From assembly GCF_027924605.1 (NCBI RefSeq), contig NZ_AP027042.1, forward strand, positions 4,937,524 to 5,001,523: a stretch of 64,000 nt of DNA. Reading direction: 5' to 3'. Under the pieces are notes generated by a model. The model was not told the DNA's origin. It did no database searches and saw nothing but the letters and a program-made list of their open reading frames with translations. The stretch is from Dyella sp. GSA-30. Its GTDB lineage: Bacteria; Pseudomonadota; Gammaproteobacteria; Xanthomonadales; Rhodanobacteraceae. Shown here piece by piece: positions 25,205 through 49,660 of the stretch; the stretch's first letter is position 1, and each line of letters opens with the position of its first letter. Made by a program: the position numbers and the translations under genes.

Positions 25205-25714
25205 ATGCCATTGCGTCGTTTCGCCTTGTCGCTGTGCCTGGTAACGCTGCTCGCAGGCACAGCGGCGCCTCTGTGGGCACAAGCCGGACCACCTCCCGGC
25301 CAGGGCCAGGCGGCACCACGCCCCTGGAACAGCCTGTCGCCCGCCGAACGCGACATGCTGTCACCGATGGGGCCACAGTGGGACTCACTCAAGCCGGAAC
25401 GCCAGCAGCGCCTGCTGGAACGCGCTCAAGGCTGGAACCGGCTTCCGCCTGACCAGCGGCAGGAAGTGCGCGACCGCATCGCACAATGGCAACAGATGAC
25501 CCCCGAGCAGCGAGATCAGGCGCGCGAAAACATGCGCCGTTTCCAGCAACTGCCGCCCGAACAGCGCCAGCAACTGCACAACGCGTTCAAGCGCTTCCAG
25601 GAACTGCCACCCGACCGACGGGAGCAGTTGATCAAGCAGTTCCAGCAACAGCGTCCTGGAGGGCATCCGCCAGGGAGCATGGGACATCCTGGCGGCGGGC
25701 CGCCCAGGCATTGA
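25205..25714 (+). CDS. DUF3106 exported protein
   Basis: The 169-residue protein has a signal peptide (1-26) and a Gln/Arg/Pro-rich helical body made of short repeats of the form W..L.P..R..., for example WNSLSPAERDML, WDSLKPERQQRL, WNRLPPDQRQEV, FQQLPPEQRQQL, FQELPPDRREQL, spaced about 20 residues apart. This is the DUF3106 pattern, reminiscent of periplasmic stress proteins of the Spy/CpxP kind. It starts two bases after the DUF3619 stop and ends the sigma operon before a strong terminator. It may be the envelope effector of the sigma factor; that is inference. Confidence 0.82.
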   Translation: MPLRRFALSLCLVTLLAGTAAPLWAQAGPPPGQGQAAPRPWNSLSPAERDMLSPMGPQWDSLKPERQQRLLERAQGWNRLPPDQRQEVRDRIAQWQQMTPEQRDQARENMRRFQQLPPEQRQQLHNAFKRFQELPPDRREQLIKQFQQQRPGGHPPGSMGHPGGGPPRH

Positions 25715-25798: not shown

Positions 25799-26176
25799 TC
25801 TCGACAAGCGATGCGAAGCGAGCGGTCAGCTCTTCGGGCCCCTCGGGAGCCGAGTGAGGTTTGGACGATCAGGCCCCGAAGGGGGACTCGGCATGGACGC
25901 CGAGTCCTTTTCGACAGGACATGGATGTCCTGTCGAAAAGCCCGGCCAAACCTCACGGTCCTGGAGCGCCGGAGGCGCGGAGGGGCGGCGTACTAGGGGT
26001 GTCCTTTCTTTGGTTATCTTTCTTTGGACAAGCAAAGAAAGTAACTCGCGCGCCGGCAGGCGGGCGAAACACGCCGCAGGCGACTTTCTAGCCGAAGCAC
26101 AGAACCAGAGCGATGCACACTCCAACGACAACCCAACACCGAAGCCACTGGATCCCGGCCTACGCCGGGATGACGA
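25799..26176. repeat. Structured intergenic element, type A copy 1
   Basis: This element is repeated at 49199-49617. Its left part is closed by an 11-bp stem (gtgaggtttgg 25854-25864 with ccaaacctcac 25946-25956) and contains three hairpins: cccc/gggg at 25874-25884, an 8-bp stem at 25885-25906 and a 15-bp stem at 25907-25940 with loop tgga. The right part has a stem gttatctttcttt/aaagaaagtaac (26013-26045), a hairpin with ggca loop (26051-26062) and a REP arm (26146-26175). Stems differ from the second copy by paired changes. The frames through it are proline/arginine-rich and not gene-like. It fills the gap between two convergent transcripts. Confidence 0.8.
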
Positions 26177-26275: not shown

Positions 26276-27376
26276 TCAGCCCTCGAAGCAAACGGTCCCC
26301 AACTTCACCACACAACTCTTACTCACCAACTCATCACCAAAATCAGGACTCAACACCCCATCACGCACCAACAACTCAGCAAAATTGAACACATTGCGCG
26401 CATACATCTCCGACGCATGCAACGGCGCCCCCGCCGGCAAATTCAACGGCCCAAGAATCGTCACCCCATGAAGCTCGACCCGCTCACCAGGCCGCGTCAG
26501 CTCACAATTGCCGCCACCCTCGGCCGCCAGATCGACAATCAAGGCGCCAGGTTTCATGCCTTCGACCATCGCGGCGGTAAGAATCTTCGGTGACGGACGC
26601 CCCGGCACCGCAGCCGTGGTCACGATCACATCGACCGACTTCACATGCTCGGCCAGCGCCTGCTGTTGCGCAGCGCGTTCCTCGGCGGAAAGCTCGCGTG
26701 CATAGCCGCCACTACCGGCAGCGCTGACGCCCAGCTGGACAAACTTCGCACCCAGCGACTCCACCTGTTCGCGCGTCTCCGGCCGCACGTCATAACCTTC
26801 GATCTGCGCACCCAGTCGGCGCGCCGTGGCGATTGCCTGCAGGCCGGCAACACCCGCTCCGATCACCAGCACGCGCGAGGGGCGGATAGTACCGGCGGCG
26901 GTCGTCAGCATCGGGAAAAATTTGGGCGCGGCTTCAGCGGCGATCAGCATCGCGCGATAACCGGCAACTGCCGCCTGCGAACTGAGCACATCCATCGCCT
27001 GCGCGCGCGTCGTGCGCGGCAACAGTTCCAGCGCAAAGGCGGTAATGCCCCGCTCGCCCATGGCGGCGATACGCTCCGCGGCACCATAGGGTCGCAACTG
27101 TCCGATCAACACACTGCCTGCGCGCAGGCGGGCTACCGTTGCATCGTCCGGCGGCAACACGCAGGCCAGCACATCCGCCTGCGCCAGAACTTCCGCAGCA
27201 TCGCCGAATTCGCCATCGACGTAGCTGGCATCGGGAAACCCGGCCGAAGCGCCGGCGCCATGCTCGAGCAAGACCCGAACCCCCTTGGCACGCAATTTCT
27301 TTGCAGTTTCCGGCGTAATCGCGACACGTCGCTCGCCAACGGCGGTTTCACGCAATGCGGCCACGGTGATCGGCAT
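26276..27376 (-). CDS. pntAA: NAD(P) transhydrogenase alpha-1 subunit
   Basis: The 366-residue soluble protein is domain I of the transhydrogenase. It has the alanine-dehydrogenase/PntA N-terminal fold (ETAVGERRVAITPETAKKL), the RQD-type loop region, and the NAD-binding fingerprint VLVIGAGVAGLQAIATARRLGA (about 168-189) followed by YDVRPETREQVESLGA. It binds NAD(H) and works with PntAB and PntB. The start at 27376 follows GGGAG with six-base spacing. It is on the same strand as pntAB-pntB but separated from them by an opposite-strand sigma operon and a repeat element, so it needs its own terminator or a long transcript. Confidence 0.94.
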   Translation of the reverse strand: MPITVAALRETAVGERRVAITPETAKKLRAKGVRVLLEHGAGASAGFPDASYVDGEFGDAAEVLAQADVLACVLPPDDATVARLRAGSVLIGQLRPYGAAERIAAMGERGITAFALELLPRTTRAQAMDVLSSQAAVAGYRAMLIAAEAAPKFFPMLTTAAGTIRPSRVLVIGAGVAGLQAIATARRLGAQIEGYDVRPETREQVESLGAKFVQLGVSAAGSGGYARELSAEERAAQQQALAEHVKSVDVIVTTAAVPGRPSPKILTAAMVEGMKPGALIVDLAAEGGGNCELTRPGERVELHGVTILGPLNLPAGAPLHASEMYARNVFNFAELLVRDGVLSPDFGDELVSKSCVVKLGTVCFEG

Positions 27377-27516
27377 CGGGGACTCCCTGCGGATGATTCG
27401 GGCCATCATAAGGCCTTAATGGACCGCGCTTGTACCCGGGGGGCACCTCGGGAGTAGACTGACCAGCCGCATACGGCATCGATACCCGGCGGGCAAGACG
27501 AGCTGGAGATCCATTG

Positions 27517-46956: not shown

Positions 46957-46995
46957 GACTGCTAGCTCGCTGCTGTTAGGCTGTCGTTGGTGTGC

Positions 46996-47022
46996 TTATC
47001 GGCGGTCTTGGCCCGGGCTTTA
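46996..47022 (-). promoter_or_regulatory. Sigma-28 (FliA) promoter of the second chemotaxis operon
   Basis: On the minus strand the sequence reads TAAAGCCC, 11 bases, GCCGATAA. The enteric consensus is TAAAGTTT-N11-GCCGATAA, so the -10 is perfect, the spacing exact and the -35 core intact. It ends about 40 bases before the STAS start and directs transcription of STAS-cheY-cheA and probably the rest of the operon. Confidence 0.85.
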
Positions 47023-47118
47023 GCGAATTGCCGAGCTCAAGTTATTGCGTCCCCCGCCGATGCAGTGGCCGCAACCCCTCATTGGTCTGCGATTAGCCCG
47101 AGCGTCACAGGAGCCTGT

Positions 47119-48288
47119 TTGATCATCCAACCCACCAGCCTTGCCGCCCTTACCTGGGCCGGCGCCGCCGCCGGCAGCACGGCTGACAGCTGGCGGATCG
47201 GTACCGTGCTGTCCGCGCGGCCACTGGGCGTGAGCCCGCAGGGGATGATGATCTTGCAGATCGGCGCGTTGGCGGTCGAAACCCAGTCGCCGAGCACGCA
47301 ATTGCCGCCGCAGTTCCAGGTGCGCGTCCTGAGCATGGGCGCCGAGCCGCTGCTGGAGGTGATGATCCCCTCCGGGCCGGAAACCTTCGTGCAGCAGGCC
47401 ATGCGTGAGCGCCTGCCACAGCAGAACGGCTATGCCCCGCTGCTGGCGACGCTCGATACCCTCGCGCAACGTCCGCAGGTACGCCAGTTGCCCTCTTCCA
47501 TCCGTACCGCATTGGCCTTGCTCGAAAACGCCATGCGCACGCCGGAAGAAATCAGCGACGGCCCTGGTTTGCGTGAAGCAGTCGCCCGCAGCGGCTTGTT
47601 TCTTGAAGCGCAGCTCGCCGATCCGATGGCCATGGGCGAGGCGCTGGGCGAAGAAGACTGGAAAGGTGCGCTGTTGCGCCTGGCTACCGCCCTGCAGACC
47701 GGCGGTTATGTCGGCAAGCCCTCGACCAATGGACCGGGCAACGCCCCGGATACCGCACCGCCGTTGCAGCACCGCGGTCTGCTGGCGCAACCTCGCGCGG
47801 CCGCGCCTGAAGAAGGCGATCCCTTGCTCGGCGACGATGCGCAAGATCTCCGCCCGCTACTCGATCGACTCAACACCGACGTGCATGCCGCGCTGGCCCG
47901 CCTCGAAGTGGCCCAACTGGAAACGGCGGCTACCTCGGTCTGGATGGTCGAGATACCGGTGCAAGGCAAGGACGGGCGCGACGTCGTGCAGCTGCAGTTG
48001 GAACAGGGCGCGACCAGCAGCGATCCTTCCACGTGGACGTTGGGTTTTGCGCTGGAACTGCCGAGCCTAGGCCCGGTGCAGGGCGAGGTTCAATTGCGCG
48101 GCCAACGCCTGAGTGTTCGGCTTTGGGCGCATATGGCATCCACTGTCGAAAAGCTCGATCGCCGTTTCGACATGCTGCGCGATCGTCTTGCCGCCAGCGG
48201 GCTGATTCTCGATCAGTTGAGCTGCCAGCATGGCATGCCGCAAACCGGGCAGTCCCGTAGCGCCGTACTACTGAAGACCATGGCATGA
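47119..48288 (+). CDS. FliK-like flagellar hook-length control C-domain protein
   Basis: The 389-residue protein has an N-terminal region with SWRIGTVLSARPLGVSPQGMMILQIG and a C-terminal FliK_C-like domain (WMVEIPVQGKDGRDVVQLQLEQ, FALELPSLGPVQGEVQLRGQRLSVRLWA, LRDRLAASGLILDQLSC). Its start is set at the TTG (47119) with CAGGAG five bases upstream, because the upstream codons have no family similarity. It overlaps the next gene by ATGA and is on the opposite strand to all flagellar genes in the window. It is not the gene next to fliD/fliH that normally encodes FliK, so it may be an FliK paralogue. Confidence 0.78.
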   Translation: MIIQPTSLAALTWAGAAAGSTADSWRIGTVLSARPLGVSPQGMMILQIGALAVETQSPSTQLPPQFQVRVLSMGAEPLLEVMIPSGPETFVQQAMRERLPQQNGYAPLLATLDTLAQRPQVRQLPSSIRTALALLENAMRTPEEISDGPGLREAVARSGLFLEAQLADPMAMGEALGEEDWKGALLRLATALQTGGYVGKPSTNGPGNAPDTAPPLQHRGLLAQPRAAAPEEGDPLLGDDAQDLRPLLDRLNTDVHAALARLEVAQLETAATSVWMVEIPVQGKDGRDVVQLQLEQGATSSDPSTWTLGFALELPSLGPVQGEVQLRGQRLSVRLWAHMASTVEKLDRRFDMLRDRLAASGLILDQLSCQHGMPQTGQSRSAVLLKTMA

Positions 48289-48650: not shown

Positions 48651-49022
48651 CGTCATTCCGGCGTAGGCCGGAACCCAGTGGCGTCAGTGCTTGGTTCTTG
48701 CCTGAATGCTTTCGCGACCTGGCCGCTTACGCAGCGGGCGTTTCACTCGCCTGCCGGCGAGCGAGTCACTTTCTCTTTGCTGGCCCACGCTTGCGCGCAG
48801 CGCATGCGAACGGCGAAGCCGGCCCGCAGGGCGGAGGACCTTTAGGTCCGGAGTAAAGAGAAAGTAACCCAAGAGAAATGGCCTGTGGATCAAGAGCTCT
48901 GAGCAGCATTGAGAGATACAACCGTTCGTGCCGCCTACTCGAATCGTCAGGGGACACTTCTGGCGCTTCTGAGGTGCGCCGGATTGGTGTGCGAGGCGTC
49001 GTGGCGGTGAGGACTTAAAGCA
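48651..49022. repeat. Structured intergenic element, type B copy 2
   Basis: It aligns with copy 1 (43767-44170) from the REP core to the tail ending gaggacttaaagc. The hairpin is ctcgcc-tgcc-ggcgag (48746-48761), so its stem has changed by paired bases while the tgcc loop is kept. The long stem is 48765-48778 with 48855-48868. Confidence 0.82.
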
Positions 49023-49158
49023 CCCCCTCACCCTAACCCTCTCCCCCGGCGGAGCCAGGGGAGAGGGGACTGACTGAGGCGAGCCTCTGTGTTGCGCACT
49101 TGCGCCACCTGCTCCCTCTCCCCTGGCTTTGCCGGGGGCGAGGGCTGGGGTGAGGGGG
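49022..49158. repeat. C-rich inverted repeat
   Basis: Arms of about 45 bases at 49022-49067 and 49113-49158 are near-complements (accccctcaccctaaccctc and its partner). A related single copy lies at 62894-62939. Confidence 0.75.
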
Positions 49159-49198
49159 CCGGGTGCTCGCGGGAACATCACCAAAGTGCAGCTTTGCT

Positions 49199-49617
49199 CT
49201 CGACAAGCGATGCGCAGCGAGCGGTCAGCTCTTCGGGCCCCCTCGGGAGCCGAGTGAGGTTTGGACGATCAGGCCCCGAAGGGGGCATCGACAGGACGTC
49301 GATGCCTTTAGGACGGGACACGGATGTCCCGTCCTAAAGCCCGGCCAAACCTCACGGTCCGCAGGACGGCGGACTAGGGGTGTCCTTTCTTTGGTTAGCT
49401 TTCTTTACTCCGGGCCTTACGGCCCTCCGCCCTTCGGGCCGGCTAACGCCGTTCGCACTGCGTGCGTGGACAAGCAAAGAAAGTAACTCGGCGACCGGCA
49501 GGTCGGCGAAACACGCCAAAGGCGACTTTCTAGCCTAAACGCAGAACCAGAGCGATGCGCGCTCTCGCGACAACCAACCACCGAAGCCACTGGGTCCCCG
49601 CCTACGCGGGGATGACG
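49199..49617. repeat. Structured intergenic element, type A copy 2
   Basis: It aligns with copy 1 (25799-26176). The 11-bp closing stem is identical (49254-49264 with 49345-49355). The two inner hairpins have different stems: gcatcgac/gtcgatgc (49285-49305) and tttaggacgggaca/tgtcccgtcctaaa with loop cgga (49307-49338). It contains an extra 60-base GC-rich hairpin block (about 49408-49468) that is missing from copy 1 but matches the loop of type B elements in reverse. It ends with a REP arm (49588-49617). Confidence 0.82.
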
Positions 49618-49660
49618 AACAGGTGGGGGACCGGGCAAAACGTGCCGGGTCAAAGCACCC

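Follow-up and report, generated by a model that had tools for sequence, protein, structure and literature searches.

The window, that is the whole stretch of 64,000 nucleotides of Dyella sp. GSA-30 that was analysed, carries two copies of a structured element, both on the + strand. Alignment of 17 copies from the same genome defines a unit of about 270-300 nucleotides, in which a 5′ part and the junction core are followed by a variable P4, by a tail hairpin (GTTA.CTTTCTTTGGACAAGCAAAGAAAGTAAC) and by additional hairpins, with inserts within the hairpins of several copies. According to this alignment and to profile matches, the whole unit of copy 1 extends from 25801 to 26091, between a DUF3106 gene (25205-25714, + strand) and a converging gene of the AlaDh/PNT family (26276-27409, − strand). 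Its tail hairpin (GTTA..CTTTCTTTG / CAAAGAAAG-TAAC), which is also present in distant genomes, is located at 26013-26045, and the final hairpins and end (GCGCGCCGGCAGGCGGGCG; CGCCGCAGGCG; CTAG) at 26046-26091, as deduced from the alignment of copies. Copy 2 (49200-49533; alignment and profile match L045 529-855) is located between a FliK-type gene (46987-48288, + strand) and the converging cheW-motB genes. Upstream of it, a tail-only remnant of its opposite-strand partner in a divergent pair was found at 48738-48876 (− strand; profile match L045 200..62, minus strand, model positions 183-250).

Several additional sequences accompany these units. The tail-hairpin loop of copy 2 contains an extra hairpin-rich insert (ACTCCGGGCC..GCGTGCG) at about 49405-49466, which is common to several other copies of the genome. 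A dRS3-like palindrome (ATCCCGGCCTACGCCGGGATGACGA), whose loop is devoid of GGA, is found 3′ of the element end in most copies of this genome, in the window at about 26144-26176 and 49590-49620. A second dispersed palindrome (CCCTCACCCTAACCCTCTCCCC..GGCTTTGCCGGGGG..GAGGGTTGGGGTGAGGG) adjoins many element copies, in the spacer of the inverted pairs; it occurs at 49028-49160 of the window and in the left flanks of L039, L045, L046 and L049. Matches to Rfam miRNA families fell on a dispersed palindrome in the flanks, distinct from the element, and were discarded as chance. One element copy is adjoined by a TPP riboswitch (L043:1037-1135).

The two cores (copy 1, 25854-25956; copy 2, 49254-49355) have the coordinates and sequences given in the initial annotation. 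Each folds into a closed junction formed by an 11-bp closing stem P1, a small GC-rich hairpin and two arms, P2 and P3. Both segments of 102-103 nucleotides reach −64.4 kcal/mol (z-scores, −9.5 and −8.7), and none of 200 shuffled sequences was equally stable. With the covariance model R1, copy 1 is the top match in the genome (106.7 bits), and copy 2 scores 97.2 bits. The folding and the loop statistics place arm P2 of copy 1 at 25884-25907 with the loop ATGGAC (25893-25898), and arm P3 at 25908-25939 with the loop ATGGAT (25921-25926), both of the ANGGAX type; in copy 2, the folded loops are AGGAC (49293-49297) for P2 and ACGGAT (49320-49325) for P3. The near constancy of the closing stem and of the loops, which had been pointed out from the sequence of the two copies, was thus reproduced, the P1 stem being identical over its 11 bp. 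The same holds for the proposal of about six paired substitutions in the inner stems: three pairs differ in P2 (A-T to C-G, C-G to A-T, G-C to A-T) and three in P3 (T-A to A-T, C-G to G-C, A-T to G-C), all of them compensated.

The two window copies are part of a much larger set. A DNA search showed that the element is spread across the genome, and R1 detected 16 intact cores, including these two, in this 5.5-Mb single-contig Rhodanobacteraceae genome. A covariance model search of relatives had been proposed as a check on the two copies; performed with R1, it gave matches in 93 of 117 genomes of Rhodanobacteraceae, often with at least 30 copies each. The named matching records belong mostly to Dyella and Rhodanobacter, which are soil bacteria. 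At the level of the class, 33 of 321 genomes had R1 matches, many of them multicopy; these sequences are diverged and include other families, but the junction is retained in them, and in many cases the tail hairpin as well. In several draft genomes (G002, G003, G015, G027, G072) contigs often break off within the element. Multicopy inverted repeats are expected to have this effect, and the copy numbers of drafts are therefore underestimates. Searches of plasmid and phage sequences for the element yielded no match, and an origin from a plasmid or a phage was rejected on this basis.

We then analyzed how the stems vary. Among 30 diverse copies, double changes occurred at 27 of the 33 pairs, and 184 double-change cells were counted; shuffling gave 54 ± 6, and sliding the partners never gave more than 58. 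Further copies with uncompensated changes had been named as evidence that would speak against selection on pairing; the larger sample went the other way, since 97.4% of the stem cells pair in 133 distinct copies, versus 70 ± 3% in 200 simulations run along the tree and started from the consensus. The same copies contain 714 double-change cells, versus 107 ± 37 in these simulations (maximum 257). Conservation of the structure is close to certain.

The origin of the paired changes is a distinct issue. Watson-Crick pairs make up 96.3% of the stem cells and G-U pairs only 1.1%, so that wobble pairs are fewer than expected for selection on RNA alone. Moreover, stem types are mixed between copies (L051, for instance, combines a P2 of one type with a P3 of the other), which shows that the arms behave as modules. 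Because the stems are exchangeable and G-U pairs so rare, some of the paired changes are probably due to gene conversion or palindrome correction at the DNA level. Carried to its end, this line of thought would have gene conversion swapping whole hairpins and template switching perfecting the palindromes, with no selection on pairing. The orthologous copies of two Dyella species, whose stems differ at several positions at the same time, every change being fully paired, fit such a scheme, as do the mixed modules and the scarcity of G-U pairs. However, among close copies one-sided changes are numerous (35 versus 14 double changes), indicating that palindrome correction is not instantaneous; 40 different P2 stems exist; and the fixation of ANGGAX loops throughout the class is beyond the reach of such a process. 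A purely mutational origin appears somewhat unlikely to us for these reasons. The claim of the initial annotation that the paired changes reveal selection on base-pairing is supported, with limits: pairing is kept while the stem sequence turns over in about 25 genera and in other families of the class, but the two copies alone were insufficient to show it, the same stems being found in different copies as interchangeable modules.

Contrary to the stems, the tips of the hairpins are almost invariant, and they carry the motif recognized by CsrA/RsmA. The P2 arm follows the pattern C-A-N-G-G-A-X-G. In the 133 distinct copies, A(N)GGA was found in 125 P2 loops, borne by 40 different stems, with A at position 1 in all 133, GGA at positions 3-5 in nearly all, and a closing C-G pair in 131; only N (T67 G37 C13 A12) and X (T110 C16 G6 A1) vary freely. 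The P3 loop shows A(N)GGA in 131 of the 133 copies, often without the N, and three copies of the genome (L047, L048, L053) have a 24-nucleotide palindromic insert in this loop, which lengthens the hairpin. Folding of individual sequences from other families of the class revealed A(N)GGA in about 35 of 36 cases per arm. Since R1 had been trained on GGA loops, the class was searched again with a second model, R2, in which the two loops were masked by N. A hand tally of the listed sense-strand matches with readable loops, antisense matches being excluded as shadows, gave GGA in 28 of 30 P2 loops and in 30 of 32 P3 loops. The loop conservation first noted from two copies extends to 133, while its identity with the CsrA/RsmA motif had gone unrecognized.

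These loops correspond closely to what is established for the protein. Solution structures have shown that an ANGGAX hexaloop set directly on a stem is a high-affinity target of CsrA/RsmE, in which N and X are variable, and that AGGAX is weaker (PMC4005645). CsrA forms a homodimer, and paired sites are the usual case (PMC4333381). A single csrA gene is present in the genome, and over 51 residues its product is almost identical to CsrA chains of solved structure. In the element, paired GGA motifs are located in stem-borne apical loops, which is the feature of the Csr/Rsm-binding RNAs (clan CL00106) in the broad sense.

Comparison with Rfam points in the same direction. At the gathering threshold no family, CsrB and RsmX/Y/Z included, matched the window or 20 further distant loci. 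Below it, the best match to a window copy was TwoAYGGAY (RF01731, clan CL00106), with 37.9 bits and E=1e-4 for a gathering score of 43; this RNA is itself only predicted to bind CsrA (PMC4333381). In searches of 12 whole genomes with the TwoAYGGAY model, 25 matches were obtained in seven genomes, all of them element-bearing, and 22 of these matches were verified as element copies. No match was detected in four element-free and 14 control genomes, nor in G136 although this genome is rich in the element. Because the top score across the 12 genomes (42.7 bits) stayed under the gathering threshold of 43, we do not class the element as a member of TwoAYGGAY. RsmW, of the same clan, matches another element copy below its cut-off. 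Like TwoAYGGAY with its pair of A(Y)GGA(Y) hairpins, the element has A(N)GGA loops on both arms, and the TwoAYGGAY model finds its copies genome-wide; it differs in that N is often a purine (N = Y in only 80 of 133 P2 loops), in that its arms are enclosed in the P1 junction, and in that it is multicopy, dispersed, arranged in inverted pairs and followed by a tail of further hairpins.

The known sponge RNAs offer a second comparison. CsrB/CsrC and RsmX/RsmY/RsmZ/RsmW likewise expose several GGA motifs in hairpin loops, and the CAGGANG context of the P3 loop is similar to the CsrB repeat. However, each of these RNAs comes from one gene devoted to it, under a promoter of its own, whereas the element is scattered over the genome in 16 to at least 34 copies with two core sites each. 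RsmU of Xanthomonas campestris, which we liken to the element by description, also sequesters RsmA, has GGA motifs in the same order and derives from a 3′ UTR, but it is one mRNA-derived sRNA and is not reported as a repeat (PMC7694677). Full-text searches of openly accessible papers found no published description of a repeat carrying CsrA sites; this is weak evidence. The repeat element mentioned with CsrA in a paper on Alcanivorax proved to be a CRISPR annotation.

The arrangement of the copies is that of a mobile-like repeat. Of 54 core pairs that are near neighbours, 51 are placed head to head (divergent), most of them with gaps of 77-364 bp, and several copies of the genome, copy 2 among them, have only the tail left of their partner on the other strand. 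In Dyella silvae (L143, L184), the inter-arm spacers show tandem expansions of TTTGGC, which suggest slippage. The gap between metI and metQ is occupied in two Dyella species and empty in 28 other genomes of the family, including that of the window. Both arms are present in D. tabacisoli, where the element has inserted inside the metI-metQ operon; in D. silvatica, one orthologous arm was seen before the contig ends. The orthologous arms of the two species show several stem differences, each of them paired. Inspection of this single site showed inverted-repeat-like ends, GGGTTGGGG(T/G)TGTCGC, with no clear duplication of the target. The intergenic location, the interspersion and the inverted pairs are shared with REP/BIME sequences and their RAYT enzymes; the unit of about 270 nucleotides, compared with some tens, and the lack of a linked RAYT are not. 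Indeed, no Y1/RAYT gene (PF01797) was found in the genome itself or in six of 12 element-rich genomes of the family, and none of 25 Y1 loci in other genomes bears the element. Hence RAYT/Y1 is not supported as the mover, and the link to a mobile enzyme considered in the initial annotation was not found, although a lineage-specific insertion was.

Such features raise the possibility of a selfish MITE- or BIME-like DNA repeat with no role in RNA, moved in trans by an enzyme that recognizes single-stranded hairpins with GGA loops. The spread as inverted pairs and the lineage-specific insertion are equally expected of such an element, and its interspersed intergenic copies, its ends and its almost pure Watson-Crick stems agree with it. 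The distribution of Y1/RAYT genes, the lack of a clear target duplication and the absence from plasmids and phages argue against it. Besides, it leaves unexplained why N and X vary exactly as in CsrA targets and why the matching Rfam family is TwoAYGGAY, of the CsrA clan. We regard it as unlikely.

How the copies would be expressed was considered from their surroundings. All 16 copies of the genome are intergenic and eight lie between facing genes, according to a simple gene caller, whose placement of the genes flanking copy 1 was wrong. A scan of the two window regions for consensus sigma-70 promoters gave none. The element itself forms no intrinsic terminator, and no U-tract follows its hairpins. 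Read-through is therefore the likelier route of expression. The position of half of the copies between facing genes, together with the strength of the hairpins, might also suggest a 3′-end or bidirectional terminator, or an mRNA-stabilizing element between convergent genes. We hold this to be very improbable because of the missing U-tract and of the insertion inside the metI-metQ operon, and because termination does not need GGA loops.

The best explanation of the data is that the sense RNA of the element binds CsrA/RsmA, as suggested by the loop pattern and by an independent curated model. The transcription, CsrA binding, sponge effect and mode of spread that we infer could be combined as follows. 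The junction is the core of a dispersed mobile-like chromosomal repeat, whose units often occur as head-to-head pairs. In RNA from the sense strand, ANGGAX loops would be displayed by two hairpins lying side by side, so that one molecule would offer paired sites to both RNA-binding faces of the CsrA/RsmA dimer. Once a copy is transcribed, in most cases through read-through that starts in a neighbouring gene, its hairpins would bind CsrA/RsmA. The numerous copies would jointly form a distributed sponge, and each one would also mark the transcript in which it lies. We consider it reasonably probable that the repeat core bears paired CsrA/RsmA sites functioning as a distributed sponge or as local sites in read-through transcripts. 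That a mobile or formerly mobile repeat has scattered these sites, its copies titrating CsrA and the neighbours of each insertion coming under CsrA control, is a more tentative proposal, which we put at somewhat less than even.

If true, sites bound by a global RNA regulator would be carried on a dispersed repeat, and a post-transcriptional regulon would have been built by a transposon-like element. With the landing motif of CsrA/RsmA at its hairpin tips, the element may represent a CsrA decoy distributed over many loci instead of one gene. According to a paper on Xanthomonas, homologues of the CsrB/RsmB decoys have not been found there and RsmA must be controlled otherwise (PMC3937308), with RsmU as one later exception (PMC7694677). 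With its paired CsrA sites, and occurring in most of the 117 family genomes as well as in further families of the class, the element is a concrete candidate for a missing antagonist in a related lineage.
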